A program made the translations under genes and the position numbers. The notes under the pieces were generated by a model. The model searched no databases and was not told the DNA's origin. It was given only the letters and a program-made list of their open reading frames with translations. DNA of 64,000 bases from a virus. Each line of letters begins with the position of its first letter. The stretch's first letter is position 1. The stretch lies in the IMG/VR virus record IMGVR_UViG_3300043409_000928, positions 186,001 through 250,000 of that record; one strand, given 5' to 3'. Shown here one piece after another: positions 19,894 through 43,783 of this stretch.

Positions 19894-20535
19894 TTACTCG
19901 TTTTCTTCAAAGATGCTGTGTAATACTTCTACAATGTGCTCGTAATGTTTTTTGCGATCTTCTAGTCCAATTGTGCCACCGTTGATCTTTTTAGTAACAG
20001 TTAAGACATCACCTTTTTCTGCCCAGGTGTTTAATTTGCGTGTGTTCCAGAACCAACCAGCACTCAATACCGCCACTGGATTCTTGGCCACTTGATCTGG
20101 TTCTGCCAACAAGTCCAGGCCCAGCGCCTTGCCGCAATTGTTATAGTTGTCTTTGCCAGTTAACTGAATAACGCCGCGCCCTCTATATTTGTATCCTTCG
20201 CCTGATGATTCTGCACCATTGCCCATACGGGAGCCGTAAACTCGGTTGGCAATTTTTTCTGGCTTACGAGCATATGGGGTTGCATCTGCTTCGCTGGGGA
20301 AATACTTTTTAAATGTGCCAGTTAAGCCCTTGGCCGAATAGTTTAAGTTTTCTTCTGTAGCAGAAAAATTTCCACTTTCGTGTGCAGTTTGCGCCAGGAA
20401 CATGGCCATACTTTCTGGCGTATTAATTTCAAAATGTTCAAATGTCTCATTGAATCCTTCAAGAAACTTTTCTAGATTAGACACTTTAGCATCCGGAAGA
20501 CATGCTTGTAGATTTTCTAGTGTTAGTTTTATCAT
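19894..20535 (-). CDS. GH19 chitinase-type endolysin
   Basis: A protein of 213 residues. TAHESGNFSATEENLNYSA carries the first catalytic Glu of the GH19 fold, and GYKYRGRGVIQLTGKDNY is the family hallmark; WFWNTRKLNTWA follows. Phage GH19 enzymes cleave peptidoglycan for lysis. There is no signal peptide, so it needs a holin; candidates are the small membrane proteins at 25.85-26.9 kb. AAGGA precedes the ATG and a strong terminator follows. Confidence 0.92.
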   Translation of the reverse strand: MIKLTLENLQACLPDAKVSNLEKFLEGFNETFEHFEINTPESMAMFLAQTAHESGNFSATEENLNYSAKGLTGTFKKYFPSEADATPYARKPEKIANRVYGSRMGNGAESSGEGYKYRGRGVIQLTGKDNYNNCGKALGLDLLAEPDQVAKNPVAVLSAGWFWNTRKLNTWAEKGDVLTVTKKINGGTIGLEDRKKHYEHIVEVLHSIFEENE

Positions 20536-25817: not shown

Positions 25818-25825
25818 TTTAAATA
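25818..25825 (+). promoter_or_regulatory. Late-type promoter for plus-strand cluster
   Basis: TTTAAATA followed by TAGGTATA, 28 bases before the 25853 ATG. The same TTTAAATATAGGTATA string recurs at 35712-35727. It is close to the T4 late element. AAGGA lies before the ATG. Confidence 0.5.
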
Positions 25826-25852: not shown

Positions 25853-26134
25853 ATGGGTGAATTTTTCAAATTGGTAGCAGATGTAGGATTTCCGATTGCC
25901 GCGGCGATAGCAGGTGGCTACTTTGTATTCCTTACAATGAAGTTCATTTTGGCAGGAGTCATGTCCAGCGTTAAAGGCTTATCCGGCATTATCACTGCAC
26001 TTGATAATCGTGTTAAGACAATGAATCACGATGTTATCCGCATTGACACAATTGTCAGTAATGCATTGGGACTAAAGCCCGATGTAGACCGTATTGCTAG
26101 AGCAGACGGAAAAACAGACGCAAGAAGAGATTAA
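25853..26134 (+). CDS. Small membrane protein, holin-like candidate
   Basis: A protein of 93 residues with an N-terminal membrane span (VGFPIAAAIAGGYFVFLTMK) followed by an amphipathic coiled segment (ALDNRVKTMNHDVIRIDTIV). The GFPI-then-span layout resembles small YvrJ/UviB-type phage membrane proteins, some annotated as holins. It is similar in layout to the 26564 gene. A lysis role with the GH19 endolysin is possible but they are on different operons. Confidence 0.6.
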   Translation: MGEFFKLVADVGFPIAAAIAGGYFVFLTMKFILAGVMSSVKGLSGIITALDNRVKTMNHDVIRIDTIVSNALGLKPDVDRIARADGKTDARRD

Positions 26135-26148
26135 AATGGGAAATTCCA

Positions 26149-26562
26149 ATGTTATATGTTGATTACAACTGGGATCTAAGCCCAAACTACATGTCACCAG
26201 ACCCGGAACTGAACACTGACCAGCTTGGTTGGTCAGTGGGCGACCACTGGAAAGTTGTTGAAACCGCAGGTGGCAAGAAAGCCCTGGCCAAGGTAGATCC
26301 ATTGACTGCTTTTGTATTAGAAGGTGCCAAAGAAGTTGTATACAATTCTGATAAGTTATATCAGTTTGCTGTATACTCAAGAAATGCGGAATTTATCGAA
26401 GTAATTGGTTGGATTAAAACCAACAAGATTCAATTTGAAACACATTTAAATCGTACAAGATTCTGGATTCCAGAAGGACCAGAATTGATGGAGTTTTTAT
26501 TGGCATGGTCGCATGTATGCCCCCGTGTTGATCACGAAGTAGATCATCTAATTGGGGCTTGA
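26149..26562 (+). CDS. Hypothetical protein between two membrane genes
   Basis: A protein of 137 residues starting MLYVDYNWDLSPN. It has no membrane span and is aromatic-rich, with RFWIPEGPELMEFLLAWSHV near the end. No family is recognised. It starts 14 bases after the first membrane gene and its stop is one base before the second. Confidence 0.65.
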   Translation: MLYVDYNWDLSPNYMSPDPELNTDQLGWSVGDHWKVVETAGGKKALAKVDPLTAFVLEGAKEVVYNSDKLYQFAVYSRNAEFIEVIGWIKTNKIQFETHLNRTRFWIPEGPELMEFLLAWSHVCPRVDHEVDHLIGA

Positions 26563-26563
26563 T

Positions 26564-26899
26564 ATGAATATAGCAGAATTAATTAACAAATACGGATTTC
26601 CGATTATTGCCGCAGGCGGTATGGGATACCTTATTTTTTATGTATGGGAATGGGCCACAAAAGAAATTAAACCGGTACTAAGTGAAGCCAGTACAACACT
26701 TATAGCACTAATCGATCGTATACGTATGTTAGATAACGACTTAATTAGACTACAACAAAAAGTCAATACCACCTTACATTTGCGCGGCAAGATCATTGAA
26801 AGTGAGCGTGTTATGGAAGCCCACAAGGTTGACATAGAAGCAGAAAATAAATTTAAAGAAGCCATTGGTGACAGCAAGAAAGCTGGTGATACTAAGTAA
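26564..26899 (+). CDS. Small membrane protein, paralog-like to 25853-26134
   Basis: A protein of 111 residues from MNIAELINKYGFPI; the apparent earlier start is a TTG in the preceding gene. One membrane span (GFPIIAAGGMGYLIFYVWEW) is followed by a long coiled-coil (LIALIDRIRMLDNDLIRLQQK) and a charged tail. It shares GFPI-x-AA and the RxxxLDND-type coil with the 93-residue protein upstream. A holin or spanin-like role is speculative. Confidence 0.6.
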   Translation: MNIAELINKYGFPIIAAGGMGYLIFYVWEWATKEIKPVLSEASTTLIALIDRIRMLDNDLIRLQQKVNTTLHLRGKIIESERVMEAHKVDIEAENKFKEAIGDSKKAGDTK

Positions 26900-26903
26900 A
26901 TTG

Positions 26904-27611
26904 ATGAATATAATAATCTACACACTAGCATTAACCCATATTACCATCGCCTGCGTTACATTATACTTACATCGTAGTCAAGCACATAGATCAGTAACAT
27001 TTCACCCTGTTATTACTCACTTCATGCGAGCCTGGCTCTGGCTAACAACCGGAATGATTACCAAACAGTGGGTGGCTGTACACCGCAAACATCACAGATT
27101 TACAGAAGCGGAAGGTGACCCGCATAGTCCCCATGTTTATGGAATTAGTCGTGTATTCTTCAAAGGAGCCGTGTTATATCATGAAGCCAGCAAAGATAAA
27201 ACTATGGTTGATTCATACGGCGCCGGCACTCCTGACGACTGGATAGAGAAAAACATATATGCCAAGCACAGTAAACTGGGTATTGTACTAATGTTGCTGA
27301 TAGACATTTTGTTATTTGGTTGGTGGGGTTTTGTAGTATGGGGCATCCAAATGATTTGGATTCCGTTCTGGGCCGCAGGAATGATCAACGGCATCGGACA
27401 TTGGTGGGGATATAGAAATGGCGAAACTAAAGATCACAGTAGAAATATTGTGCCTTGGGATATTGTTGTTGGTGGGGAATGCCTGCATAATAACCATCAT
27501 TTGGATCCTGCTAACCCTAGACTGAGTCGTCGTTGGTTTGAGTTTGATGCAGGATGGATGTATATTACTATACTAAAATTCTTTGGGCTTGCTAAACTCC
27601 GAGCAGATTAA
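26904..27611 (+). CDS. Fatty-acid (acyl-CoA type) desaturase
   Basis: A protein of 235 residues from MNIIIYTLALTHITIAC. It has the three His boxes of membrane desaturases: HRSQAHRS (HxxxxH), HRKHHRF (HxxHH) and HNNHH (HxxHH), separated by membrane spans (LGIVLMLLIDILLFGWWGF). It is shorter than cellular enzymes of about 300 residues but keeps all the boxes, so it may be active. It would introduce double bonds into host lipids during infection, an auxiliary metabolic role. Its 3' end overlaps the convergent oxygenase gene by 20 bases. Confidence 0.88.
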   Translation: MNIIIYTLALTHITIACVTLYLHRSQAHRSVTFHPVITHFMRAWLWLTTGMITKQWVAVHRKHHRFTEAEGDPHSPHVYGISRVFFKGAVLYHEASKDKTMVDSYGAGTPDDWIEKNIYAKHSKLGIVLMLLIDILLFGWWGFVVWGIQMIWIPFWAAGMINGIGHWWGYRNGETKDHSRNIVPWDIVVGGECLHNNHHLDPANPRLSRRWFEFDAGWMYITILKFFGLAKLRAD

Positions 27612-28302: not shown

Positions 28303-30348
28303 CTATTTACTCGTTGCCCTGTAAGTGCCGTCCCATTCAGGCGGCAACCCTTCTTTCATTCGTTCTAGCATGGCTTCGTAGTACTTATTAAGTTCAGTTT
28401 CTTCTTTGATTAACTTTTCACAGGATTTAATAGCACGAGCCCAGTCACCGCGGTAGTATGCAGTTAGGTAAATGTCATGCAATGTGCGATTGGTATTGCC
28501 CAGTGTGAAAATCTCGACACCTTGAGTTTTACCCTTGACAGCAATGTTGTCAAGCTCTACCACCGGATACGATTCTTTGACCAACTCTGCAGTCCTTTGA
28601 CCAAGTACAATTCTGACGCCGTAGTTCTTACTCTGTCCTTCCAAGCGTGATGCCAGATTAACACCGTCGCCAAGACAAGTATAGTCAAAACGCTGATCAG
28701 ATCCCATATTACCCACCACAACACTGGCGCTATTAATCCCAAGGCCCATACCAAAAGCTGGTACGCCTTCTGCTGTAACTTCTGCATTAAATGCATCTAA
28801 ACTCTCCATCATTTCCAAAGCTGTCTTGACTGCCATGTGTGCATGACGTTCCTCATCCAACGGTGCGTTCCAGAATGCCATCTGTGCATCACCAATGTAT
28901 TTGTCAAGCGTACCGTTGTTCTCAATGATCTTTGCTGTCATAGCAGTCATGTAACGGTTCATAATTTTAGTTAGTCCCTGAACATCTCGTCCGTAGTGTT
29001 CGCTGATTGTGGTAAAGCCTCTAACGTCGGTGAACATGATACTCAGTTCGCGCTCGTCGCCACCCAACCGTAACAGTTCTGGATTTTTCTGTAGCTTGGC
29101 AACCAGTGCTGGACTAAGGTATGTGCCAAACTGTTTCTTAATCTGTTGCTTCTGTCTAAACTCTTGCACAAATCTAGCAAACAGTGCATGGCCGTACAGC
29201 ACGACACTGGCAAACACAATGTAATAGATGTCCCATAACTGACTATATTCTGCCCATAGCATCAGGCCGCCCTGGACTACTACATATACAATGCCGCCCA
29301 GCACCAGTAGAGCCGCCCAAACAGGCACCCGTGGCATAGCAAAGATAACAATAGCGGCAATGGCCACAATGACCAATAATTCAACAATATTAGACCAGCC
29401 AGGGCGACTAGGACTATTACCATCAATCAATGTTTGTATTGCACTGGCCTGTAAGTTGTGTGCCCACAACTCACCTCTGGGAGTGGCAACAATACCACCC
29501 AGTCCTTCAACTGCCAAACCAAGCACAACAATCTTACCTTTAAGGTCAATGTCTTTGCGACTTAACTCACCCAGCTCATAATGTTTAAACTCTTTGTTCC
29601 AGCGTAGCCAAACACGACCGTTGGCATCTGTTGTCACAACAGGTTGTCCAGCAATACGTATTTTCTCAACGCCTGCGTCTGACATCTTCATTTGATAACT
29701 TTGTTCTCCTGTGAACACACGGAGTGCTTCAATGGCCAAGCTTGGATAGTATTCTTTGTTTACTGTGACCACAAGTGGCATGCGTCGAACAACACCATCT
29801 ATTTCACTTGCGGCAATTGTTGTACCTACACCCCGAGCACTCTGTGCTAGTTCTGGTCTGGGACTTAGAGCGCCAGACCATTTGAATAACCAAATATAGG
29901 GATCACCGCCTATGACAGCAACTCCTCTACGAACTGCGTCTGGCTTTTTATTTTGTGTGGTTGGACTTTGTGCAATAACACTGGGTGTTTTGGCCAATGT
30001 CTTGGCCAAATCTGCATCACCATTCAAACGATCTCGTTCAGTCATAAGAATAGGAACCACAACAGTTGCGGCTCCTAGGTCATTGATTCTTTGTATTGCC
30101 AGTGCAAGTTCTCTGCGGTCCCATGGCCACTGACCATGTCGAGCCATACTTGCTTCACCAATATCTACTACAACAATTTCTTCACTGGACAAGACGCTGT
30201 CACTGGATAGTAATGTATCAAACCCCTTCAATTGCAGACTTTCAATAGCCGAAGGGTTTGATAATTTTAGCACTACCAGCAATGCGGCTGTGATTGTTAC
30301 CCAGGTCACACTAAATGGTCCAGGTATGTATTTTAAAATGTTTTTCAT
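28303..30348 (-). CDS. CHASE2-domain membrane adenylate cyclase
   Basis: A protein of 681 residues: one N-terminal span (about 14-29), an extracytoplasmic CHASE2 sensor (about 35-310, with VVVDIGEASMARHGQWPW), three spans (about 321-338, 343-362, 372-392) and a class III cyclase. Catalytic marks are complete: IMFTDVRGFT (metal Asp441), LDKYIGDAQMAFW (Lys483, Asp487), YTCLGDGVNLASRLEG (Asp561, Asn564, Arg568). Lys plus Asp at the base-reading positions points to ATP, so cAMP. Such a receptor in a phage is exceptional. In bacteria CHASE2-cyclases often sit near FecR-domain proteins, as here (32022-33125). A promoter lies upstream (30370-30398). Confidence 0.92.
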   Translation of the reverse strand: MKNILKYIPGPFSVTWVTITAALLVVLKLSNPSAIESLQLKGFDTLLSSDSVLSSEEIVVVDIGEASMARHGQWPWDRRELALAIQRINDLGAATVVVPILMTERDRLNGDADLAKTLAKTPSVIAQSPTTQNKKPDAVRRGVAVIGGDPYIWLFKWSGALSPRPELAQSARGVGTTIAASEIDGVVRRMPLVVTVNKEYYPSLAIEALRVFTGEQSYQMKMSDAGVEKIRIAGQPVVTTDANGRVWLRWNKEFKHYELGELSRKDIDLKGKIVVLGLAVEGLGGIVATPRGELWAHNLQASAIQTLIDGNSPSRPGWSNIVELLVIVAIAAIVIFAMPRVPVWAALLVLGGIVYVVVQGGLMLWAEYSQLWDIYYIVFASVVLYGHALFARFVQEFRQKQQIKKQFGTYLSPALVAKLQKNPELLRLGGDERELSIMFTDVRGFTTISEHYGRDVQGLTKIMNRYMTAMTAKIIENNGTLDKYIGDAQMAFWNAPLDEERHAHMAVKTALEMMESLDAFNAEVTAEGVPAFGMGLGINSASVVVGNMGSDQRFDYTCLGDGVNLASRLEGQSKNYGVRIVLGQRTAELVKESYPVVELDNIAVKGKTQGVEIFTLGNTNRTLHDIYLTAYYRGDWARAIKSCEKLIKEETELNKYYEAMLERMKEGLPPEWDGTYRATSK

Positions 30349-30369: not shown

Positions 30370-30398
30370 AGTTTAACAGAGTTAGCATTGCTTGTCAA
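30370..30398 (-). promoter_or_regulatory. Sigma-70 promoter for cyclase gene
   Basis: Minus strand TTGACA (30393-30398), 17-base spacer, TAAACT (30370-30375), 21 bases before the ATG, with AAGAGG as ribosome site. The -10 matches four of six bases. It would let the cyclase be expressed early and apart from the curli genes upstream. Confidence 0.55.
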
Positions 30399-30424: not shown

Positions 30425-30910
30425 TTAAGATCTGACTAGTATAGCAAAACTAAATCCAACAACAGGAATGGCCAAGGCTGAAAAACTTATAAAAATCAAG
30501 GCCCGGTCTATTAGATCTGATTTGGCCTGTATCCTGGCGTTTTCTATGTCTGCTTGTAGCTTGGCACGTTCTTTGTACATACGCACACGTTCGGCCATCA
30601 TTTCGTCCCAAACATCTTTATTACCCGACCATATCAACATTTCTTTCAATTCTTTTTCAGCATCGCGTAGGGCCTTGCTCTGCATGGCAATCTGCACAGA
30701 CATGGCTCTAATTTGTCCGTCTGTGAGAATATTTTTGCTGGTCTGTGCCGCCACATTGGCACCATGAATCTTATCGCTGTTTTCAAAGAACTTGGCAAAC
30801 TGTCCGTAGAGACTGTTGACATCTTTACCCAGTGCTATAGCTTTTTTAATATAGCTCACTGACTGCTGTGCGGCAGTGAAAGCAATACCAAGTGTAATAG
30901 GATCAATCAT
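30425..30910 (-). CDS. Tail-anchored helical protein in curli operon
   Basis: A protein of 161 residues starting MIDPITLGIAFTAAQQS. A long helical middle (AMQSKALRDAEKELKEML through RAKLQADIENARIQAK) is followed by one C-terminal membrane span (ALIFISFSALAIPVVGFSFA). No family is named. Its ATG overlaps the stop of the 52-codon gene (ATGA). Confidence 0.65.
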   Translation of the reverse strand: MIDPITLGIAFTAAQQSVSYIKKAIALGKDVNSLYGQFAKFFENSDKIHGANVAAQTSKNILTDGQIRAMSVQIAMQSKALRDAEKELKEMLIWSGNKDVWDEMMAERVRMYKERAKLQADIENARIQAKSDLIDRALIFISFSALAIPVVGFSFAILVRS

Positions 30911-31065: not shown

Positions 31066-32025
31066 TTATTGTCCTTGCTGTACAATAATCTTTGGACAGC
31101 CGCCTGTGGTGGCGCAGTTGAATTGGATACTGTACGACTGGTGTGCAGAGCCGTTTCCACTTTGAGATAAACTTAGATCAACAGGCAAGCCAGTTAGGCC
31201 AATCTTGGCGGCATGATTGGCAGATCCTTCCTGTAGTATGTCTACATTCTTATTGCCACCACTGAGTGTGACATCAATATAATGATTTCCACTGTCTCGT
31301 TGTTGGATCAACAGAGAATTGTTATTGTCATTGATCCTGACCAGTACTCCTTTGACGCCGCCGGTACTTTGCTGTGTAATGTTTACTGCGTTGACATTTC
31401 CATACACGCCTAGATCTATAAAATTGTAGGCAGACGGATTGGTGGAGTTTTGATTTGTAGAAATGCTGTTGTTATTGCCAACCCCGTTGTACTTGATTTG
31501 GTTGTTTGCAGTGCCAGTCTGTTCAATGACAATGGTATTATTATTGCCAATTTGTTCCACATAGATTTGTGCATCGCTTGTGGTTCTATTCATAAAGGTG
31601 TTGACACTATTGTAAAAGTTTGTGTCTGTAACTATCACAGCAGAGGCTGAAGCACCACAGCATAAAGGAGGCGGTGGAGTAGGCGGACTGGCAAAACTGT
31701 AAAATCTTCCAGAGTCTGGAAATGCTACAGAACCATCACTGTTTGTGGTATACAGGTAGAGATAATCACTACTGGGTTGGGTAGCACGATCTATAATGTA
31801 AGTGGTTCCGAGACACTGAGAACTGGTACAGGTTGCAGACCAGCCACTTAGGTTACCAAGGCCCTGCGCCACCAATGCATCAAACTCATTGGGATTATTG
31901 CCACGGTATACAAATATGTAATCGCTACCCTGTCCACTGACATTCATTGCCGCAGGAACTGTTGTGGCCTGTACCTTGCTACCAAACCCTGCCAACAGAA
32001 ACATTAATGCAATTAAAAATTTCAT
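31066..32025 (-). CDS. Secreted curlin-repeat protein with extra N-terminal domain
   Basis: A protein of 319 residues. A Sec signal (MKFLIALMFLLAGFGSKVQA) is followed by an N-terminal domain of about 120 residues, a Pro-rich linker ending in CC, and from about 150 a series of curlin-like repeats, for example VEQIGNNNTIVIEQTGTANN and VDILQEGSANHAAKIGL. The spacing of N/Q and hydrophobic residues resembles CsgA/CsgB. It may be the fibre subunit or a nucleator. Four bases overlap the FecR gene. Confidence 0.8.
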   Translation of the reverse strand: MKFLIALMFLLAGFGSKVQATTVPAAMNVSGQGSDYIFVYRGNNPNEFDALVAQGLGNLSGWSATCTSSQCLGTTYIIDRATQPSSDYLYLYTTNSDGSVAFPDSGRFYSFASPPTPPPPLCCGASASAVIVTDTNFYNSVNTFMNRTTSDAQIYVEQIGNNNTIVIEQTGTANNQIKYNGVGNNNSISTNQNSTNPSAYNFIDLGVYGNVNAVNITQQSTGGVKGVLVRINDNNNSLLIQQRDSGNHYIDVTLSGGNKNVDILQEGSANHAAKIGLTGLPVDLSLSQSGNGSAHQSYSIQFNCATTGGCPKIIVQQGQ

Positions 32026-33125
32026 CGCCGTATGCCTGAATTTTGTTTAATAAAAACAGTTGTTGCGCCAGCTTCGCCACTGCCGATTAGGGTAGTGGCG
32101 TTGGCATCATTGTGTGTAATTGTTACAAATGTATTTGCACTGTAGCCTTGAGTTTTTACTTCTGCATAATGTTCATTTTCAGTGTTACGAAACGCAATGG
32201 CTCGCCCCCTACTGGCAGCTTCTGGCTCGGTGGGACGGTCCCATGCAATACAAACTGAAGTGGTTGCATTACAACCTGATTTGACAGCAGAGTCTGTCAA
32301 TATCATTATTCGTGCTTCTTCAATCTGTTCAGCATTTTCTTTTACTCGCTGTGCCAGACGTCGCTGTGCATCAGCTTCAATCTCAGCCAGCTCTTCTTCT
32401 CGTTTGCTTCTACCAGTTGCCACGCCAATGGCCTTGCCAATTTCCTGCGGATGCGAAATAATTAAAATATTGGTAATTTTGCTCTCTACTGTATTAATAA
32501 CAACTGGAACCGTTGGTGAAATACTTGCGCTGATAACAAAGGTTGCTTCAAATGCCTTGGTCAATGTTACACGCCCACCTGCTGTGACCACATCAATTTG
32601 TCCAACCTTACATTTATTCTCATCTAACTCAAACTGTTTGATATCTTTTTCATCTTTACAACTTGGAACTAGTACAATTAGACTTTGTCCAGTTTCATCC
32701 ACGGTCATTGTAAAGTCTGTTCCGCGAACAGCAATGTTGGCAGTGGGAGTTTGTACAGCAACTTGTTGGGGGTTTGCTTTGGCAATTTGCCCGCTGGCAT
32801 ATCGAATGGTGCCCATTGCGGCCTTAATGCTCAATTTACCAGCATCGGAATTTTTTGGATCATATACAAAGTCGTCAATTACTAACCTTGAGTTTTCAGT
32901 AATTTTAACCTTGGTATCGTCTCGGAATACAATATTGCTACTACATGCACCAGTGGTATAGGTGTCCATTGACTCTACATCTGCGCCTTTGACTCCTGTA
33001 AGTTTGGTTTTACCTCGCTGAATTTCGCAGGCCAATCCTTTGTTTTCGCTGACCGTGCCGATTATGGGTCCTGCGTGGGCCGTAGAACTTAAAATAGCAA
33101 AGCACAAAATTGCCTTTGCAAACAT
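32022..33125 (-). CDS. FecR-domain exported protein
   Basis: A protein of 367 residues. The signal peptide ends AHA (MFAKAILCFAILSSTAHAG). Residues about 55-145 match the FecR domain: CSSNIVFRDDTKVKITENSR, GKLSIKAAMGTIRYASG and NIAVRGTDFTM (the VRGT hallmark). A coiled segment follows (EEELAEIEADAQRRLAQR), then a C-terminal domain that ends VFIKQNSGIRR with a curlin-like feel. FecR-domain proteins sense or scaffold in the periplasm. It sits between two curlin-repeat genes. Confidence 0.82.
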   Translation of the reverse strand: MFAKAILCFAILSSTAHAGPIIGTVSENKGLACEIQRGKTKLTGVKGADVESMDTYTTGACSSNIVFRDDTKVKITENSRLVIDDFVYDPKNSDAGKLSIKAAMGTIRYASGQIAKANPQQVAVQTPTANIAVRGTDFTMTVDETGQSLIVLVPSCKDEKDIKQFELDENKCKVGQIDVVTAGGRVTLTKAFEATFVISASISPTVPVVINTVESKITNILIISHPQEIGKAIGVATGRSKREEELAEIEADAQRRLAQRVKENAEQIEEARIMILTDSAVKSGCNATTSVCIAWDRPTEPEAASRGRAIAFRNTENEHYAEVKTQGYSANTFVTITHNDANATTLIGSGEAGATTVFIKQNSGIRR

Positions 33126-33129
33126 GCTA

Positions 33130-33885
33130 TTACCTTGCTACGGCAGTTTTAGGGGCGGCAATAGCGGTACTACTGGTTCTAATTGTAATAGTATTTTGGT
33201 CGCCAGTTGTTTTCAAATCAACAGTGGTATCGTTTGTGCCTTGCTGTTGTGTAGTAATAGAGTTGTAATTACCAGTGATCACTTGTTTTAATAAATGGCC
33301 ATTTGCGCCAGCGGCATCAAGTTGGTCAATTTCAAGTTTATTATTATTACCAGCAATATCAATGTCACTTACACCTCTACTGCTTCGTAGTATTGATGTA
33401 ACTTCGTTGGTGTTGCCTGCAATAGCAATAGTGCTTACAACATCACTAGCAACAACTGTGGTGTCTAATATATTGGTATTTCCAAGTACTGTTTCGGTTA
33501 AAGTGTTACGCAATGCCGGTGTATTTGTATCACCGACTACCAATTTGGATGAATTGGTATTGCCAGTAATTGTACTGCTATAGATATTGGTACTGCCTCT
33601 AATGTTATACTGGTTAAGGTTGGTATCTCCAGTTTGTGTTATTGATAGTGTGTTGGCACTGCCAGTGATTGTTCCGTAGTTTGTACTGCCAGGAGTTGCA
33701 CTTGTTGTGCCGCCAACATCATTGCTACCACCCACCTGCTGAATTGCAATGGTGTTGGTATTACCAATCTGTTCAATATAAACCTTGTTTGGGCCTGTTG
33801 ATGCTGTCTGTGCAAAACTCGTAGGAACAACTACCAGTCCAACCAGTATTGCAATACTCATTGACAAAACTCTATAATTTGTCAT
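33130..33885 (-). CDS. Secreted curlin-repeat protein (CsgA/CsgB-like)
   Basis: A protein of 251 residues. The signal peptide (about 1-25, ending SFAQ) is followed by YIEQIGNTNTIAIQQVGG and at least eight further N-T-N/GNTN-containing repeats (TGDTNLNQYNI, TGNTNSSKLVV, AGNNNKLEIDQL, TGNYNSITTQQQG). This is the clearest amyloid-type subunit in the window. It has its own late-type promoter and AAGGAG site, so it may be made in bulk late in infection. Confidence 0.85.
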   Translation of the reverse strand: MTNYRVLSMSIAILVGLVVVPTSFAQTASTGPNKVYIEQIGNTNTIAIQQVGGSNDVGGTTSATPGSTNYGTITGSANTLSITQTGDTNLNQYNIRGSTNIYSSTITGNTNSSKLVVGDTNTPALRNTLTETVLGNTNILDTTVVASDVVSTIAIAGNTNEVTSILRSSRGVSDIDIAGNNNKLEIDQLDAAGANGHLLKQVITGNYNSITTQQQGTNDTTVDLKTTGDQNTITIRTSSTAIAAPKTAVAR

Positions 33886-34011: not shown

Positions 34012-35199
34012 TCAATTTGAGCTTGCAGGCTTATCTCTTCTTATCCATACACGAATTTTCTCAGCCAGTCCATCTAACAAACCGGGGGCGTCTTGGTCGG
34101 CTTCGGACTCGACTGCTTTGCTTTCTGATGGGCTTGCTCCGCCATTGGGCTTGTTCGGTACTGTTTGGGTTTTAACTTCTTTTTTGGGCTCGTTGTTGTT
34201 CGGAACCATGTCATTTTTTGGTGTCTCCTTAGGGGCTTCCGTTGCTGTAACTGCAACAGGTTTAGGCAGAACTATGCTTGTTGCACTGTTGGGCCCGGGA
34301 ATAGCAACTGGCTTTTCAACATGCGCCGGTAAGGGAGGCATTGATACCTCTTTCTTGTCTTGTTTAAAGCCCCAGTGGCCTTTACGAGCACCTTGTTGTA
34401 TTGTTCCAATCACTGCCGCTTGCACAGTCACATCAATTGCTCTGTTAATACTTTCATTGATACTTCCGCCAATTTCGCCTTCTATTGCCAATGCACTGGC
34501 GGCCAGCAGTGGGTCTGTGATTCCTGGGTCATTGACAAATCTTAATAATGTCAATTTGTCCATGTAACTTAACACAGTTTTAGTCACGGTAACACTGGTT
34601 AAAATTTCACCAGTACTGACACTGACAGTTCTCAAATTTACAGTAACAGTATCACTTTGATATTGAGTGGTTGCTCCAATGCCAAATACACGCATGCCAT
34701 TACCACCAGTTAATGTATTTGAATCATATCCAATGATACCACCTTCCATAATAATACCGGCAAATACCATTGGAGGCAATGGCTGTGCATCCTTACCTTG
34801 GTACAGTTCCCTGGCCTGTCGAATCATCTGTCGTTCTTTGATTAGGTTATCAATGCCAACTCTTTCAACTGGAATAAACCATCTGCCATCGCCAGAATCT
34901 TGTAGTGCTTTAATTAGATAACTTTCAGCGCCTTGTGTAACAGCACTACTCAAACTGGCAATGCCTGTTACGCTTTTGCGTTGACCAGTCTTGTCACTGA
35001 AACTGTAGACTGCAACAGGAATTGGTCCACCAACAGGTGGCAACAATATATTTTCTTTCTTCTTTAAGAATTTACTGTTTTCAACCACAGGCTCATCAAA
35101 TTGATTGCCAGTTAGTTTTTCTCGGATTGCACTACCTGTGGCACAACCTTGCAAAATTGCAATAATCACGATAAGGGGAATTAGTCGAAGTGCTGTCAT
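34012..35199 (-). CDS. csgG: CsgG curli secretion-channel lipoprotein
   Basis: A protein of 395 residues (E. coli CsgG 277). The lipobox is AILQGC with Cys19. The core matches CsgG: PIPVAVYSFSDKTGQ, RWFIPVERVGIDNLIKERQ, FAGIIMEGGIIGYDSN, RVFGIGATTQYQSDTVTV and VSTGEILTSVTVTKTVLS. CsgG forms a nonameric outer-membrane pore for curli subunits. About 110 extra C-terminal residues are Pro/Lys/Glu-rich and end in a basic helix, absent from the bacterial protein. Its ATG overlaps the csgF stop (TAATG). Confidence 0.95.
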   Translation of the reverse strand: MTALRLIPLIVIIAILQGCATGSAIREKLTGNQFDEPVVENSKFLKKKENILLPPVGGPIPVAVYSFSDKTGQRKSVTGIASLSSAVTQGAESYLIKALQDSGDGRWFIPVERVGIDNLIKERQMIRQARELYQGKDAQPLPPMVFAGIIMEGGIIGYDSNTLTGGNGMRVFGIGATTQYQSDTVTVNLRTVSVSTGEILTSVTVTKTVLSYMDKLTLLRFVNDPGITDPLLAASALAIEGEIGGSINESINRAIDVTVQAAVIGTIQQGARKGHWGFKQDKKEVSMPPLPAHVEKPVAIPGPNSATSIVLPKPVAVTATEAPKETPKNDMVPNNNEPKKEVKTQTVPNKPNGGASPSESKAVESEADQDAPGLLDGLAEKIRVWIRRDKPASSN

Positions 35200-35678
35200 T
35201 AGAATGCAAATGTCCCGCTGGGTACTTTCATTGTTGTTATTTGAGAAGGGTTAGCAATGTTAACAATGGTAATAATAATATAGCCAGTGTCACTGCCATC
35301 ACCCAGCTTCCAAGTAATTGTATTGCCACCTATTTCAGGAATGGTACCGCATATGACGCCTTTGGTGGTGCAGGTGGCACCTTCTCCAAACAGGCTGTCA
35401 GTTAATTGTTTGGCCAACTGACTATAAATTCTACTTTCCAAGTTGGCAACAAATCTGGCAGTTGGCGTATTCAATGCGTCTGCTTCTGCTCGTTGTTTCA
35501 GCGCATCAACTAGATTTTTATTCTTTTCTTTTTGTTGATCTTCCAGTTGTTTGATAGTTAATACATGAGAAGAATATCCCACGCCACTGAATGCCGGGCT
35601 ATTAAATGAATGTTGTAGTTCTGCAGAAAGCACCGTTGCTGATGCAAAGATCAATACTACTGCCGTTATTGTTTTCAT
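35199..35678 (-). CDS. csgF: CsgF curli assembly factor
   Basis: A protein of 159 residues (E. coli CsgF 138). A signal peptide (MKTITAVVLIFASATVLSA) is followed by ELQHSFNSPAFSGVGYSSHVL, which matches the conserved mature N-terminus of CsgF that plugs into the CsgG pore. The C-terminal part has IYSQLAKQLTDSLFGEG and ends PSGTFAF. It is the first gene of the operon, behind a late-type promoter. Confidence 0.93.
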   Translation of the reverse strand: MKTITAVVLIFASATVLSAELQHSFNSPAFSGVGYSSHVLTIKQLEDQQKEKNKNLVDALKQRAEADALNTPTARFVANLESRIYSQLAKQLTDSLFGEGATCTTKGVICGTIPEIGGNTITWKLGDGSDTGYIIITIVNIANPSQITTMKVPSGTFAF

Positions 35679-35710: not shown

Positions 35711-35720
35711 TATTTAAATA
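35711..35720 (-). promoter_or_regulatory. Late-type promoter for csgF-csgG
   Basis: A palindromic TATTTAAATA box lies 33 bases before the csgF ATG; read on the minus strand it gives TTTAAATATAG. The same longer string is found at the plus-strand cluster (25818). Because the core is palindromic, the orientation is taken from the gene downstream. Confidence 0.45.
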
Positions 35721-38086: not shown

Positions 38087-41000
38087 CTAATTAACCAATA
38101 ATTTGGCTATCTCATTGCGATACTTAGCCAGCATGATTCGAGTTTTGTTTGCTTTTTCAACTGCACCAGGTGTAGCGGCTTTATCAAACTTGCTGGAATT
38201 GATTACTTTGTCTAATTTTTCTGCGTATACACGGGAGATTTTCTGCATAAAGTCTTGACTGTTGGCAATGGAATCCAGTGCTCCTGTGCCAAATAGTTCA
38301 GCAGTTTCAAAGTCTGTGGCCATGGCATGAATTGTTTTGACAATGTCACTCAATCGCTGTTCGTCTTTGAGCCCACCGTGTTGCGCCAAGTTGCCCGGCA
38401 CAACGGGCTTGGTGCCGTGTGCCAATTGATAGTAATAGGAATACATGTCCCCGCCCCAATTGTGCGGATCAATGCTTACTGTGCTCAATTGCGTGTCTTT
38501 GCTTTGACGGAAGCTGACTGGTTGCCCGCCACGTGTCTTAACTTGTACGCCTTGTATGCCAAAGCTCATGTTTAATACTTCAGCAACGCTACTCATTAGG
38601 CTGGTGCTGATAACACCCTTGACACGATATTCTGGTGCTAGTGCTCGTGCCCAATCGGCATGTTCGTTATAGGTGTAAATTAAATCAACCTGTATGGGAC
38701 CTGCGCTGGTATCCATGATAACATTGGTACCGTTGCTGGTATTGTATTCAGTGTGGCTGTCTGCAAACGACTTTACAGCATCTGCATACTCACTGGTGCG
38801 TCGGGCGGCACCTACACCCTCTCTGCTGTGAATATAGCACACAACATCTACATCACCGTATTCACGAGTAGGATCTGCTGTTAGGTCACGCTTGTAATAG
38901 GTACCGGACCCAACAGGCTTGCCCATTCTAATTTCAACATCCAGTTCATTCTCAGCTTGCCAAGCATTAAATTCTCTTTCAAAGTGATCCAGCACATTGA
39001 TTGCTTCTTCGATCACATGCGGAGTAATCACAGTATTTTGGGTGGCGGCACTGGCCCAGCCACCTTCTGTGATTGATTCGGTCTTCGGAGCCTGTTGTTC
39101 TTTATACCATTCCCAAGCTTGATTGTTTATTTCTCTGCCAACTGTTCTTCTATAGTAACCTATAAGGCCCACTAGTTTTTGAGTTTCATCCCATACGGCT
39201 GAAGCGTCTTTACCAAACCACGGCTTGAAATCATCACTCTGCGCCCATTCTTTACAATGCTGTCTAAGTTTACTACCATCTGGATCATATGCTTGCCATG
39301 CTCTACTGCCGGCCAACTCTACATCCAAGTTATCAAACAGGGTTTGTTCAATCAAGGCAGGTGTAATTACTCCTGATTCTTTTTTGTTGTCGATAGTCCG
39401 GAGTTGTTTGATAACTCTTGGATCTAATACTACACCCTGCGTTGGTTCATTGTAGGCAATCCAACCGTGGCCAGGGTCGAACACACTGGTAAAGCCCAAG
39501 TCTCTAAGCACCTTGTTCCAGCGAACAATATTGGTTTCATCACTCTTGCCTAATCTGCTTAAACAATCGTAGATGAACCAGTATGGTGTACCATCGAATT
39601 CATCTTCTTCAGCTGCCTGTTGCATTATTTCTTCTGAACAATACTGACTTAATGCTTGTTTTAATTTGGCACTATCAACTTGTGTTTCTTTTGTCATTTC
39701 ACCTGAACGGTCATATTGAAACAACTGGATGTAGGGCATGTCTTCGCCCCATGGTAGTTTTTTACCACTGCGTGCCATGTCTACCGCATAGCCTAAAGGA
39801 TAAAAGTAAATGCCTTTAGGAGTATCTTCACTAATACCTACTTGCGGGTTGATACCTAGCTTGGGTTCTGCTGTCATACTGATAGCCCAATTCTTAATGT
39901 CGCCCAAGGTCTTAGCAACAGCCTGCAACTCTTTCATACCTGACGCTGGCCGTGTATTTTGATCTGGATTAGCTCTTGCTTCTGGCAACTGTGCTGATTC
40001 ATTTAGTGCAGAATCTGCAAACCAAGGGTCTATGATTACCAGCTGACCATTCTTTCTTTGCATTACATTTTCTGTATGCAAGTCCCAGCCAAACTTGTTT
40101 ATCCTACCTGCCTTGTACAGTATCTGCATAACACCATACAATGTATGAAGCTCTTTGAACTTTGAATTATCATCTGCAAATGTCAAGTCTTGCCAGTACT
40201 TGGCCAGGTTGGCGGCCTGTCTTGGATTGTACTCCGTCCAGGTATCAGCCAACCCCAGTGCATGGTCAACTGCGTCCCAGGATTCATCGCCGGCTACAAA
40301 ATCACTAAAGAACCAGACCACACCTTCATTGAATGAATTTTTCTTGATAGGACTCAATCGTTCCATGTCAATTTGTGTGTACTCTCGGTCCAGTACGCTG
40401 ATTTTATTATGTTCATTGATCACTGGCAAGCATTCCAAGTTCTGATGTGCCAGGCAGAATTCATAAAACTTGTTGAATACTTGTTCGGCTTGACTGCCAG
40501 GATCTGGCATTAATATTTTAATAATGTGACCTTTGTTTTTGGCCCACACAGTTGAATCGGCACCTGAGCCTACCTGCTTGTAACCCAATGCTGTAAATTC
40601 TTTTTCAATTTGGTCAGCATGTGCTGTGCCTGTTTCTGCTTCCGCCACACCTTGTGGGTTGCCTAATCTCCTAACAGGAATTTTATATTGTTGTATCAGG
40701 CTGTCAATCTCTGGCGGAATGTCGGCAGGCAATACAATTTCTTTAATTTTCCAATTGTCAACCAACACTTCGTGATGGGTTGACGTATCCATACTTAAAG
40801 TGGGATCAATTTGCCCTGGTCGGCTAACATATTTTTGTTGTCCTCGTTGTCCTGCAGTCATTTTATATTGATCTGACCCCAAATCTGCACGCCCACCAAT
40901 TGTAATATGACCGTCGAGTACAATACCTACGGTTGGATTAGATCCGCCGCCCCACCTATTTTTTCCTAAAGATTCAGCGTTTGGTGCTAGGTAGGCGCTT

Positions 41001-43783
41001 AGTTCAATCTTGTTATTCACTTTTCCTTGCAAGAATGACTCTAATTGGTTCAATGGAGCCCAGTGTACTTTTAGCATTGCCGCGGCTTTTTTAGCATCCA
41101 TTTTTTGTTGAAATAGTTGTTTAAGATATTTTTCAGCACTGTAAGATTTAGTATTCATATCTTTACCAGCATCAAGTGTAGATAATCTTTCATACTCGGC
41201 CTTTTCTTGAGGAGTCATCCAGGCATAATTGTTTAGTTCAGCATCTATTCTTCTTTGAAATTCGGTATTATATAAATTTTTCAATTCTGGATTTGTTTTA
41301 TATAATGCCAAACGATCCTTCATTGGCATTGCTGATATCTGGTCATAGTTGAAACTACCAGTGGTATCTTCCGCCACACCTTGCTTGGGAATCAACAACT
41401 CAGGCATGCGATATTCACTAACATCTACTGGATATGGCTGTAATGATGCTTTGTATGCCTCAGCATACTGTTGTTTTTCCACTGTGGTTTTGGCTCTGTA
41501 AAACTTGTTGGCAATGGCCATGTCGCCCACCAAAGTTCCCGGTGGAATTGAAATCTTTTTTGGACCGTAGTATTTTAATTTGTCAGAATCTTTGTTGGTC
41601 AAACTGTAAAAGGTTGATTCCCATTTGTCTGGGTGCAAGGCATATTGTGCAGTTGCTCGTTCTGGAACAAACTGTGCCAGTGTATCTGCACCGGGATGAA
41701 ATTTACCCAACTTGGATAAACTTATAGCAGTATCATTGCTTTCGCCTTCCGTCACACCTTGTTTTATTCTGCTTAATTCATATCTAACTATAGTACCAGT
41801 GTCTGCACGGAGAGGCCTATAGCCCCAAGCACGAGCATAACGAATCACCAGTCTATCATATAACTTGGCACGACTTTCACTGTTTTGGTCAGGCTCCACT
41901 TCTTTGCTGGCAGAGAATGTCAATCGTTTTGGATTGTGTTCTTTAATGTATTGCTGGATGGCGGACAATACTGTGGCAAATACTCGTTGAGCATCACCGT
42001 CACCAGTGACTTCTTGGCTGTTGTTTCTGTGGAACTCTACTTGTATGACTTCTTCACCTTCTTCATCATACTCCATGTTGAACATGATGCTGAGGTTAGA
42101 ACCATCTGGCAAGCGAGCTAGAGCATCCATAGAATCATCAGCTTCGCTCTTTTCCCATGACATGGGATAAGGTTGATCAAAAGCTTCGTCAAGACTTTCA
42201 GGAGTCCAGGCCATATTTTTAGCACCTTTCACTGTGGGTTTAAATCCTTGGCTCTTATAAAACTTGGTCAGCTTGGCCTGACTGACTTGCCCTTTGTCCC
42301 AGGGGAATAATGTCAATGCAATGCCTGCATCTTTGGCCAAGGCCTGCAGTTCTTGCATGGCACGACTGCCCACGCCTTGCCGCAATGGATACGCTTGAAT
42401 CCATTTGACTTCTACTGCGCCTCGTCGACTAAAACTTGGCGTCAGCTCAAACATGGCAAACTGTTGATCGTCACCTGTTCCGCCCAGGGGCATGACATGA
42501 TTGTTTTGAAAAGTCTGAGGATATTTTGTATATACTGCGTCAATGAAATCTGTAACTTTAGTATCAGCTTCAGTTAAGTTTTCGTTAGTAGGAACTTCAC
42601 CCAGGCCAATTTTACCCGGATACATTGCACCGTCTCGAACTCGTTCGCCGCCATCAAAGTAACGTATTTCAATGGGCATGTCTGGCCAGTTTAATCTGTA
42701 TGCGGCCATGATGCGGTGATTGCCTTCGTTGACCCAAGCTTCGCCATTATAGGCCACCATGATATAAGGCAAGTATTCATCATCGGGATTGTTGCCTGGA
42801 GGTAGCTTGCCTGTGCGTTCCATATAGTCCATCAACCATTTCAAGTCATCTCGACGCACATTGGTTTGTTCGTTACGCATGCCTGGCAGTGACGCCAGTC
42901 GCATTACACGCACTCTAGGCGGAGTACCACGCACACTTGCTGTGGTACTGCCCATGTAAGGCACGCCAAAACTGTTGCGACCCTTGCTCTTGGCATAGTC
43001 AATTTTGTCTTGTAGCCAGTCTTCGTTAGGCACATCTATACTCAGGGTGCCCTCTTCTATCACTGCTTCGTCTACAGGACCACGATCAGCGGCCACTGCA
43101 CTGGCAATATCCCACCACTCGCCGGGAAAGTATTCTACTTGTAACATGCTGGCAGGTACTGTGCCGGGAACAATTATCTGTTCATCATCGCGCTCAATGC
43201 CGTTTTTATTTTCTGGGTATGCTCCAAACTTTGCCACCAGGTCAGCCCATTTGACACGGAACATGGTGGCTTGTTCTTTGTCGACATGATAGTAGCCACC
43301 TTCGGGATCGTATGCAAAATACACACCTGGACCAGCATATCCATCTGCACTGGGCAGTAATCCTTTACGCAATACGCTGTCTAGTCCACGGGGCATGTAT
43401 CCTGCATGGTACACATACTCACCTGGGCCAGCACTTTCTTCTAACTGTAACACAGGTACAAATGCAGGGATAGTGGACATGCCCAGCTCTAGTGCCTTGG
43501 TTGCACGGTGATTGCCATCTATAATATAACCTTGACTGTCAGCCACAATGGGGCGAGTAGCAATGTCATGGTCAGTAAGGTCGTCCACATAATCAAAATC
43601 AATGTCCAGCACACGATTATATGGGTCGGTCTTTTCGCCAAATTCATTTAGTTCAAGACTGTCAATGTCAATCTTTTTTAATTCCCATTGTGGAACACTG
43701 GCTATCACGCTGTCTAATTTAAATCCTTTTTTATGGATCTTTTTAATGTAAGTCAATACTTGTGCGCTGGTAAATGTTTTCAT
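38087..43783 (-). CDS. Giant multi-enzyme polyprotein-like protein, probably head-packaged
   Basis: A protein of 1,898 residues. Domains by eye: ParB-like (about 30-112, IIDGNHRATKALELG); ADP-ribosyltransferase-like (119-225, YVYHAGY ... GPGVYFAYDP); second ParB-like (285-378, WVNEGNHRIMAAYRL); GNAT acetyltransferase (405-527, LRQGVGSRAM, FYKSQGF); a phage domain with TGDGDAQRVFATV (535-672); two unknown modules (683-796, 806-1041); protein-kinase-like (1055-1257, GSGADSTVW, Lys in HIIKIL, DLHTENV, IDPW); a module with DPGHGWIAYNEPTQGVVL (1275-1465); nucleotidyltransferase (1582-1898, GSGTYYKRD, DVD, VDLIY). Hydrophobic-x-Glu junctions: LEE-S 115, VIEE-G 241, LTE-A 403, LDE-A 531, VTE-G 677, VAE-D 803, VAE-A 1046, LNE-S 1260, ISE-D 1317, ITE-G 1571. 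Confidence 0.7.
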   Translation of the reverse strand: MKTFTSAQVLTYIKKIHKKGFKLDSVIASVPQWELKKIDIDSLELNEFGEKTDPYNRVLDIDFDYVDDLTDHDIATRPIVADSQGYIIDGNHRATKALELGMSTIPAFVPVLQLEESAGPGEYVYHAGYMPRGLDSVLRKGLLPSADGYAGPGVYFAYDPEGGYYHVDKEQATMFRVKWADLVAKFGAYPENKNGIERDDEQIIVPGTVPASMLQVEYFPGEWWDIASAVAADRGPVDEAVIEEGTLSIDVPNEDWLQDKIDYAKSKGRNSFGVPYMGSTTASVRGTPPRVRVMRLASLPGMRNEQTNVRRDDLKWLMDYMERTGKLPPGNNPDDEYLPYIMVAYNGEAWVNEGNHRIMAAYRLNWPDMPIEIRYFDGGERVRDGAMYPGKIGLGEVPTNENLTEADTKVTDFIDAVYTKYPQTFQNNHVMPLGGTGDDQQFAMFELTPSFSRRGAVEVKWIQAYPLRQGVGSRAMQELQALAKDAGIALTLFPWDKGQVSQAKLTKFYKSQGFKPTVKGAKNMAWTPESLDEAFDQPYPMSWEKSEADDSMDALARLPDGSNLSIMFNMEYDEEGEEVIQVEFHRNNSQEVTGDGDAQRVFATVLSAIQQYIKEHNPKRLTFSASKEVEPDQNSESRAKLYDRLVIRYARAWGYRPLRADTGTIVRYELSRIKQGVTEGESNDTAISLSKLGKFHPGADTLAQFVPERATAQYALHPDKWESTFYSLTNKDSDKLKYYGPKKISIPPGTLVGDMAIANKFYRAKTTVEKQQYAEAYKASLQPYPVDVSEYRMPELLIPKQGVAEDTTGSFNYDQISAMPMKDRLALYKTNPELKNLYNTEFQRRIDAELNNYAWMTPQEKAEYERLSTLDAGKDMNTKSYSAEKYLKQLFQQKMDAKKAAAMLKVHWAPLNQLESFLQGKVNNKIELSAYLAPNAESLGKNRWGGGSNPTVGIVLDGHITIGGRADLGSDQYKMTAGQRGQQKYVSRPGQIDPTLSMDTSTHHEVLVDNWKIKEIVLPADIPPEIDSLIQQYKIPVRRLGNPQGVAEAETGTAHADQIEKEFTALGYKQVGSGADSTVWAKNKGHIIKILMPDPGSQAEQVFNKFYEFCLAHQNLECLPVINEHNKISVLDREYTQIDMERLSPIKKNSFNEGVVWFFSDFVAGDESWDAVDHALGLADTWTEYNPRQAANLAKYWQDLTFADDNSKFKELHTLYGVMQILYKAGRINKFGWDLHTENVMQRKNGQLVIIDPWFADSALNESAQLPEARANPDQNTRPASGMKELQAVAKTLGDIKNWAISMTAEPKLGINPQVGISEDTPKGIYFYPLGYAVDMARSGKKLPWGEDMPYIQLFQYDRSGEMTKETQVDSAKLKQALSQYCSEEIMQQAAEEDEFDGTPYWFIYDCLSRLGKSDETNIVRWNKVLRDLGFTSVFDPGHGWIAYNEPTQGVVLDPRVIKQLRTIDNKKESGVITPALIEQTLFDNLDVELAGSRAWQAYDPDGSKLRQHCKEWAQSDDFKPWFGKDASAVWDETQKLVGLIGYYRRTVGREINNQAWEWYKEQQAPKTESITEGGWASAATQNTVITPHVIEEAINVLDHFEREFNAWQAENELDVEIRMGKPVGSGTYYKRDLTADPTREYGDVDVVCYIHSREGVGAARRTSEYADAVKSFADSHTEYNTSNGTNVIMDTSAGPIQVDLIYTYNEHADWARALAPEYRVKGVISTSLMSSVAEVLNMSFGIQGVQVKTRGGQPVSFRQSKDTQLSTVSIDPHNWGGDMYSYYYQLAHGTKPVVPGNLAQHGGLKDEQRLSDIVKTIHAMATDFETAELFGTGALDSIANSQDFMQKISRVYAEKLDKVINSSKFDKAATPGAVEKANKTRIMLAKYRNEIAKLLVN
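40639..40654 (-). repeat. QGVAE-encoding 16-bp repeat, copy 1
   Basis: Plus-strand CTTCCGCCACACCTTG, encoding Q-G-V-A-E on the minus strand at residue about 1044 of the giant protein, immediately before the kinase-like domain. It is identical to the copies at 41368 and 46457. Confidence 0.8.
41368..41383 (-). repeat. QGVAE-encoding 16-bp repeat, copy 2
   Basis: An exact copy of CTTCCGCCACACCTTG at residue about 801 of the giant protein, between two unrelated modules. Confidence 0.8.
41746..41761 (-). repeat. QGVTE-encoding 16-bp repeat, copy 3
   Basis: The same element with one change (CTTCCGTCACACCTTG), giving Q-G-V-T-E at residue 675 of the giant protein. Confidence 0.75.

Follow-up and report, generated by a model that had tools for sequence, protein, structure and literature searches.

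A CHASE2-containing class III nucleotide cyclase in the curli-type operon of a jumbo T4-like phage

Why should a phage carry a sensory nucleotide cyclase, and what might such an enzyme sense during infection? The question is raised by the window analysed here, a stretch of 64,000 nucleotides corresponding to bases 186001-250000 of the 285,304-bp virus record IMGVR_UViG_3300043409_000928. An initial annotation described a complete CHASE2 class III cyclase in a phage, and proposed that it rewires host regulation through cAMP-CRP or senses the state of the envelope. CHASE2 cyclases encoded in phage curli operons are already known. The genes csgF and csgG were found in pelagimyophages (Zaragoza-Solas et al., 2020, PMC7029224), the set csgF-csgG-curlin-FecR-(curlin)-adenylate cyclase was recognised in pelagiphages (Wittmers et al., 2022, PMC9599517), and CsgG and CsgF of methylophage Melnitz have been discussed as a possible pinholin or secretin (Buchholz et al., 2022, PMC9004378). 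The cyclase is also annotated in the HTVC008M and Melnitz records. New here are the spread of the set, including large T4-like contigs, a pair of small membrane proteins (A and B), late-promoter cores, an origin from two bacterial units and the absence of a cAMP receptor from the phage records searched.

The cyclase and the phage that carries it

Queries from HTVC008M identify, elsewhere in the record, T4-type genes for terminase, portal, prohead protease, major capsid, sheath, DNA polymerase, clamp loader and recombination functions, as well as gp55. Since homologues of gp17, gp20, gp21, gp23, gp18 and gp43 are all present in the 285-kb record, it falls within the T4-like phages; judged by these structural and replication genes, the source of the window is a T4-like phage of jumbo size, and the description of the cyclase as a phage gene holds. 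In two jumbo relatives, the match to the Gp23 major capsid protein is split into two pieces ~30 bases apart within one open frame (G006:C1:189700-190698 and G012:C1:309375-310361), suggesting an insertion within the capsid protein. The window also encodes a 1898-aa protein (38087-43783, minus strand), stretches of which match a phage protein kinase family, a ParB-like family and uncharacterised families, and which looks like a multi-domain fusion.

The cyclase gene occupies its reported span exactly, with 681 intact codons, but it is read from the minus strand, the plus strand being full of stops:

28303-30348, minus strand: CHASE2 plus class III (IIIb-type) nucleotide cyclase, 681 aa (open reading frame, Pfam, structure matches, model)

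Both Pfam domains score far over their cut-offs, CHASE2 at residues 23-333 (E=3e-41) and Guanylate_cyc at residues 434-614 (E=4e-20), in keeping with the description of a complete CHASE2 class III cyclase. The CHASE2 domain lies between an N-terminal membrane helix (~8-30) and three further ones (~321-394), four in all, which is the layout of a CHASE2 receptor; an AlphaFold monomer model, of low confidence at the active site, was used for domain layout only. Solved cyclases match the protein at E values down to 2e-33, with CyaB (P. aeruginosa, 3r5g) and CyaC (Spirulina, 1wc0) among the best. These class IIIb enzymes share the catalytic core, the metal-binding Asp residues, the Lys/Thr purine pair and the Asn/Arg pair, but have different regulatory domains where the window cyclase has CHASE2 and four membrane helices.

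Alignment to CyaB and CyaC bears out D441 and D487 as the metal-binding residues, and alignment to the solved cyclases agrees with N564 and R568 as the transition-state pair. For the purine-reading pair, given originally as Lys483/Asp561, K483 is correct but D561 is not: the relevant column in the CyaB and CyaC alignments holds T557, and D561 is the invariant Asp of a 'GD.V' turn. A Lys with an Asp characterises class IIIa and a Lys with a Thr class IIIb. By alignment, K483/T557 is the class IIIb pattern, and ATP is the substrate to be expected from such a pair.

These residues are strongly conserved. All 163 homologues from phages and bacteria retain D441 and D487, K483 is present in every phage copy, and active-site residues are intact in more than 150 phage copies. 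Three active-site types occur: K/T/N/R (n=106, including the window), K/S/N/R (n=20, including HTVC008M) and K/D/S/R (n=32, including Melnitz). The last corresponds to a sister clade (L002 and 31 others, e.g. L167, L126 and L121) in which T557->D goes together with N564->S, so that the Melnitz cyclase, unlike that of the window, has D and S at these positions. Having lost the usual transition-state Asn, this clade may differ in activity, rate or substrate. Related phages also encode stand-alone proteins of ~100-128 aa that share homology with the C-terminal ~110 residues of the cyclase, covering the end of the catalytic domain and the tail (L100:1170-1553, L106:17185-17550, L131:19459-19830, L143:18709-19062, L147:17922-18305 and L148:8698-9051); these are possibly a duplicated, detached regulatory piece. 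Overall, the sequence supports the view of the gene as a phage-borne sensory class III cyclase with a complete catalytic site, and apart from the strand and a single residue the first observation was sound.

In the tree, the cyclases of phages group together (support 92/100) on a long branch adjacent to FecR-linked bacterial cyclases; several bacterial branches are also long, making the exact kinship unsure. The phylogeny had been proposed as a way of finding the bacterial donor, but none can be named from it, and one genome-collection scan gave a single distant match (23%). The separation of the phage group indicates that the donor is not a recent one. Between close, unsaturated pairs, the cyclase has a dN/dS of ~0.055-0.07, lowest or near lowest of the set, and is thus under strong purifying selection.

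The curli operon and its small membrane proteins

The cyclase is the last gene of a minus-strand operon that runs from 35678 to 28303 in the order csgF, csgG, curlin, FecR, second curlin, 161-aa ORF and cyclase:

35199-35678, minus strand: CsgF, 159 aa (Pfam E=2e-7, over the cut-off)
34012-35199, minus strand: CsgG outer-membrane pore lipoprotein, 395 aa (Pfam E=6e-43)
33130-33885, minus strand: first curlin-repeat protein, 251 aa, secreted (domain search)
32022-33125, minus strand: exported FecR-domain protein, 367 aa, with a signal peptide, no membrane helix and curlin-like C-terminal strands
31066-32025, minus strand: second curlin-repeat protein, 319 aa, secreted (weak match, positioned as in relatives)
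30425-30910, minus strand: 161-aa ORF with one C-terminal membrane helix, between the second curlin gene and the cyclase; an insertion in this lineage

The order csgF-csgG-curlin-FecR with a cyclase is that of the phage type VIII secretion (T8SS, curli) set. The 161-aa ORF has homologues in very few loci and is ruled out as a conserved member. The set shares CsgG, CsgF and curlin repeats with the csg operons of E. coli but, among its operon genes, lacks CsgC as well as CsgE and CsgD, neither of which was found by domain searches of these genes, and has FecR, the cyclase and A/B in addition.

A scan of viral sequences for the cyclase gave at least 591 confirmed contigs, and the curli set is present in hundreds of viral contigs. 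FecR and curlin accompany the cyclase in all 41 loci having 7 kb upstream, with csgG within that distance in 36 of them; conversely, the cyclase is present in 17 of the 18 csgG loci with room for it. The order F-G-c-R-(c)-A (csgF, csgG, curlin, FecR, optional curlin, cyclase) is fixed. The set extends to at least 15 contigs of 202-364 kb, most with a recognisable T4 major capsid gene; a paper search, within its limits, gave no previous report of curli in phages of this size.

The pelagiphage set has the same gene order and occurs in HTVC008M-type myophages and HTVC023P-type podophages (PMC9599517; PMC7029224). The window differs in belonging to a 285-kb T4-like phage (with relatives to 364 kb), in having A/B convergent rather than upstream, and in its extra 161-aa ORF before the cyclase. 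HTVC008M has the operon order of the window without this ORF. Melnitz likewise lacks it and has the same six genes with A/B upstream, its cyclase being 39% identical to that of the window; the Melnitz paper discusses only CsgG and CsgF, and fibre genes are said to be lacking (PMC9004378). The locus is best filed with the phage type VIII secretion sets already known, as an example from a jumbo T4-like lineage.

Beyond the cyclase, and convergent with the operon, lie the small genes:

25853-26131, plus strand: small membrane protein A, 93 aa, phrog_18771, first of a tandem paralogous pair
26149-26562, plus strand: 137-aa ORF between A and B, found near the set in 66 loci and thus lineage-specific
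26552-26899, plus strand: small membrane protein B, 115 aa, phrog_18771, second of the pair; the start may be the ATG at 26564

A fatty-acid desaturase gene (26865-27611, plus strand) overlaps the end of this small-pair operon and recurs in 28 related loci.

A and B each consist of one N-terminal hydrophobic membrane helix followed by a charged helical, coiled-coil tail. Both are present in 217 of 220 fetched loci, the other three being truncated, or almost, at contig ends, and among 50,697 phage records the phrog_18771 pair is confined to the six curli-bearing ones. Unbiased clustering of neighbouring genes places the pair at the top with 215 loci, above even the curli genes; the next other family reaches 66. 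The placement of the pair varies: it is upstream on the same strand in 79 loci, convergent beyond the cyclase in 54 (as in the window), downstream in 8 and divergent in 2, while csgF is flanked by a copy on either side in loci such as L244-L260. Further examples are found at L244:797, L244:1564 and L002:7297-7935. Linkage that is kept through such rearrangement is good sequence evidence that A and B share a function with the curli set, of which they should be counted as parts.

The pair seems to be uncharacterised to date. Histidine kinases have been named before csgF (Wittmers et al., 2022, PMC9599517), where the genes found here encode small single-helix proteins; to judge from position, the genes so labelled are probably A/B. 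No kinase domain was matched in A or B by Pfam at E values up to 10. At 93-115 aa, and with no match to a dimerisation or ATPase domain, A and B are far too short for histidine kinases, which speaks against that assignment.

Late-type promoters and the FecR partner

T4-type late promoters have a TATAAATA core. The exact TATAAATA is not enriched in the window and was rejected as the late promoter of this phage, but the shorter core TAAATA is enriched upstream of window genes, as is an early-type motif, GGTTGACA. Pattern matching places three candidate promoters at the set:

35711-35716, minus strand: TAAATA late-promoter core, 38 nt upstream of csgF
25820-25825, plus strand: TAAATA late-promoter core, 33 nt upstream of small protein A
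30370-30398, minus strand: sigma-70-like promoter TTGACA-17-TAAACT, directly upstream of the cyclase (pattern match only)

The late cores recur across relatives. In the 54 loci with csgF at the start, TAAATA precedes csgF in 50 (4.7 expected from shuffles). Where the pair leads (79 loci), the first gene has the core upstream in 51 (8.4 expected), and the first gene of the pair itself has one in 42 of 54 loci (4.9 expected). No such core lies in front of csgG or FecR in the loci of the same scan. The curli set thus looks late-expressed. The sigma-70-like promoter is not general, being present in 12 of 136 relatives against 3.2 expected, and is a feature of the lineage that could give the window cyclase an extra early supply.

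The candidate for a periplasmic partner of the CHASE2 domain is the FecR protein. The phage FecR has a signal peptide and neither an anchor nor a membrane helix in its mature part. Its model contains a confident FecR domain resembling the signalling domain of PupR and, at the C-terminus, a series of short strands, modelled at low confidence, that finishes with the conserved curlin-like motif ITI.Q. Without a membrane helix or a cytoplasmic anti-sigma part, the protein does not conform to FecIR cell-surface signalling, and we read it as a periplasmic ligand or reporter for CHASE2 rather than an iron regulator.

Bacterial relatives are consistent with such a partnership. The closest cellular CHASE2 cyclases, on Alphaproteobacterial plasmids of Paracoccus, Shinella, Ensifer, Ruegeria, Rhizobium and Methylosinus, lie beside a gene for a FecR-domain protein. 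In this sample, which is confined to Alphaproteobacterial plasmids, all nine CHASE2 genes are within ~3.2 kb of a FecR gene (eight plasmids of 0.3-2.6 Mb, with 1-3 FecR genes each), and a cluster of CHASE2-cyclase, FecR, TPR and phosphodiesterase genes has been reported independently from Campylobacterota (PMC9239204). These couples share with the phages a cyclase beside an exported FecR-domain protein. Their neighbours, however, are not curli genes: they often adjoin peptide export genes, and NHLP, TolC or TonB-type export, TPR, phosphodiesterase and, in two cases, cNMP-binding genes are found around them. On the Shinella and Ensifer plasmids (L181 and L184), the couples form part of NHLP peptide-export operons that also encode a small cNMP-binding protein, possibly representing a general bacterial arrangement of 'export plus cAMP sensor'. 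Conversely, neither FecR nor a cyclase is present in the four bacterial curli operons inspected (E. coli, Azospirillum, Sphingomonas and Sphingobium). Given the pairing in nine of nine bacterial cases and the lack of either gene in these four operons, the phage set joins two bacterial units. Unlike the bacterial couples, the phages are without a cAMP- or cNMP-binding protein in the 37 records searched (that of the window and 36 others); in a phage without a cAMP receptor, any cAMP signal would have to act through a host target.

The role of the cyclase in infected cells

The best explanation, which we hold at slightly better than even, is late export of a phage amyloid under FecR-CHASE2 feedback control, with the cyclase as the signalling component. 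The late operon would export a curli-like amyloid onto the surface of the infected cell; from family membership, CsgG would be the outer-membrane pore, with CsgF on top and the two curlin-repeat proteins as cargo. The cyclase would be an inner-membrane protein whose CHASE2 domain faces the periplasm, where its partner would be the exported FecR protein with its curlin-like C-terminal strands. Engagement of FecR, for example by the presence of curlin subunits or the pore, or by blocked export, would activate or silence the class IIIb cyclase dimer on the cytoplasmic side. The resulting cAMP would act through a CRP-family protein or another target of the host, and might pace amyloid production, envelope state or lysis. 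This reading draws on the domains, catalytic residues, operon, FecR pairing, late-type promoters and purifying selection described above, to which it adds three presumptions: ATP as the substrate, FecR as the ligand of CHASE2, and the output. Counting against it, the sigma-70-like promoter of the window cyclase would permit early expression, the 37 phage records leave the output side empty, and one sister group (n=32, Melnitz included) carries T557->D and N564->S. No clumping of infected cells was seen with Melnitz (Buchholz et al., PMC9004378), which also counts against this reading.

That the cyclase instead raises cAMP and rewires the host via CRP during takeover, independently of curli, is unlikely. 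The complete active site, the need for a host receptor where the 37 phage records offer none, and the sigma-70-like promoter would all suit such a role, yet the cyclase is almost never found apart from the curli-FecR set, the set begins at late promoters, and the cyclase-proximal promoter is not general. Late-type promoters make early host takeover improbable as the main purpose of the set, and early cAMP-CRP rewiring is less supported than FecR-CHASE2 feedback. The initial annotation was thus right on the enzyme but too broad on its role: envelope sensing is plausible, more specifically of FecR and curlin export, whereas the curli operon had been missed and the late promoters disfavour early takeover.

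A function in the timing of lysis or release, with CsgG as a gated or pinholin-like pore (Buchholz et al., 2022), A/B as holin-like proteins and the cyclase as a clock, probably does not apply either. Late promoters would fit it, as would the single N-terminal helix and coiled coil of A and B, and B weakly matches the holin family phrog_4898 (E=0.003 for the window, 1e-4 for Melnitz), but this match covers only ~20 residues, and A/B are confined to curli-bearing phages although other phages need holins too. An endolysin is encoded at 19894-20535 on the minus strand (phrog_181, E=3e-82), ~5 kb from the pair; an endolysin lies near the set in only ~17 loci, however, and is ruled out as a fixed neighbour. 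Curlin subunits are present (see also Wittmers et al., 2022), making fibre export the simpler use of CsgG.

Iron-responsive regulation, with FecR as an iron/citrate regulator and histidine kinases before csgF (Wittmers et al., 2022), is very unlikely. It would draw on the FecR domain match and the fold similarity to the PupR signalling domain, but the phage FecR is secreted, without a membrane helix or cytoplasmic anti-sigma part, and bacterial FecR genes are paired with those for CHASE2 cyclases. If the genes labelled as kinases are the small ones preceding csgF, their products have ~93-115 aa and match no kinase domain.

Still more improbable is a counter-defence or decoy function akin to Pycsar/CBASS, in which the cyclase makes or drains a defence nucleotide. 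PADLOC PycC models do match the catalytic domain (best E=4e-24), but only across the common catalytic core; the Lys that reads the purine does not vary, PADLOC matches no effector among the six proteins tested, and the fixed partners are curli genes and FecR rather than defence genes. With the purine-cyclase Lys kept and no effector among these neighbours, the sequence does not place the enzyme in the PycC family. That the cyclase is a passenger without present function can hardly be reconciled with its dN/dS of ~0.06 and with residues intact in >150 phage copies.

Beyond feedback-controlled amyloid export in this phage, a wider interpretation is conceivable but rather doubtful: the set may be a self-contained, late, signal-controlled amyloid export machine in which a phage-specific core, the pair A/B, replaces control of the CsgE/CsgD type and connects periplasmic FecR-CHASE2 sensing with export or lysis. 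It would then constitute a distinct, virus-evolved branch of type VIII secretion common to podophages, T4-like myophages and T4-like jumbo phages. Two probably misleading labels are corrected here, namely 'iron regulator' for FecR and 'substrate residue' for D561. Why abundant aquatic phages carry amyloid export without a counterpart in their known cultured hosts has been the subject of competing published guesses, including sibling capture, a pore for uptake, a pinholin and superinfection exclusion. For a curli set that is spread over phages of very different size, the question is now narrower: the set looks late, is strongly selected and joins two bacterial units, and two small proteins can be named as its parts.
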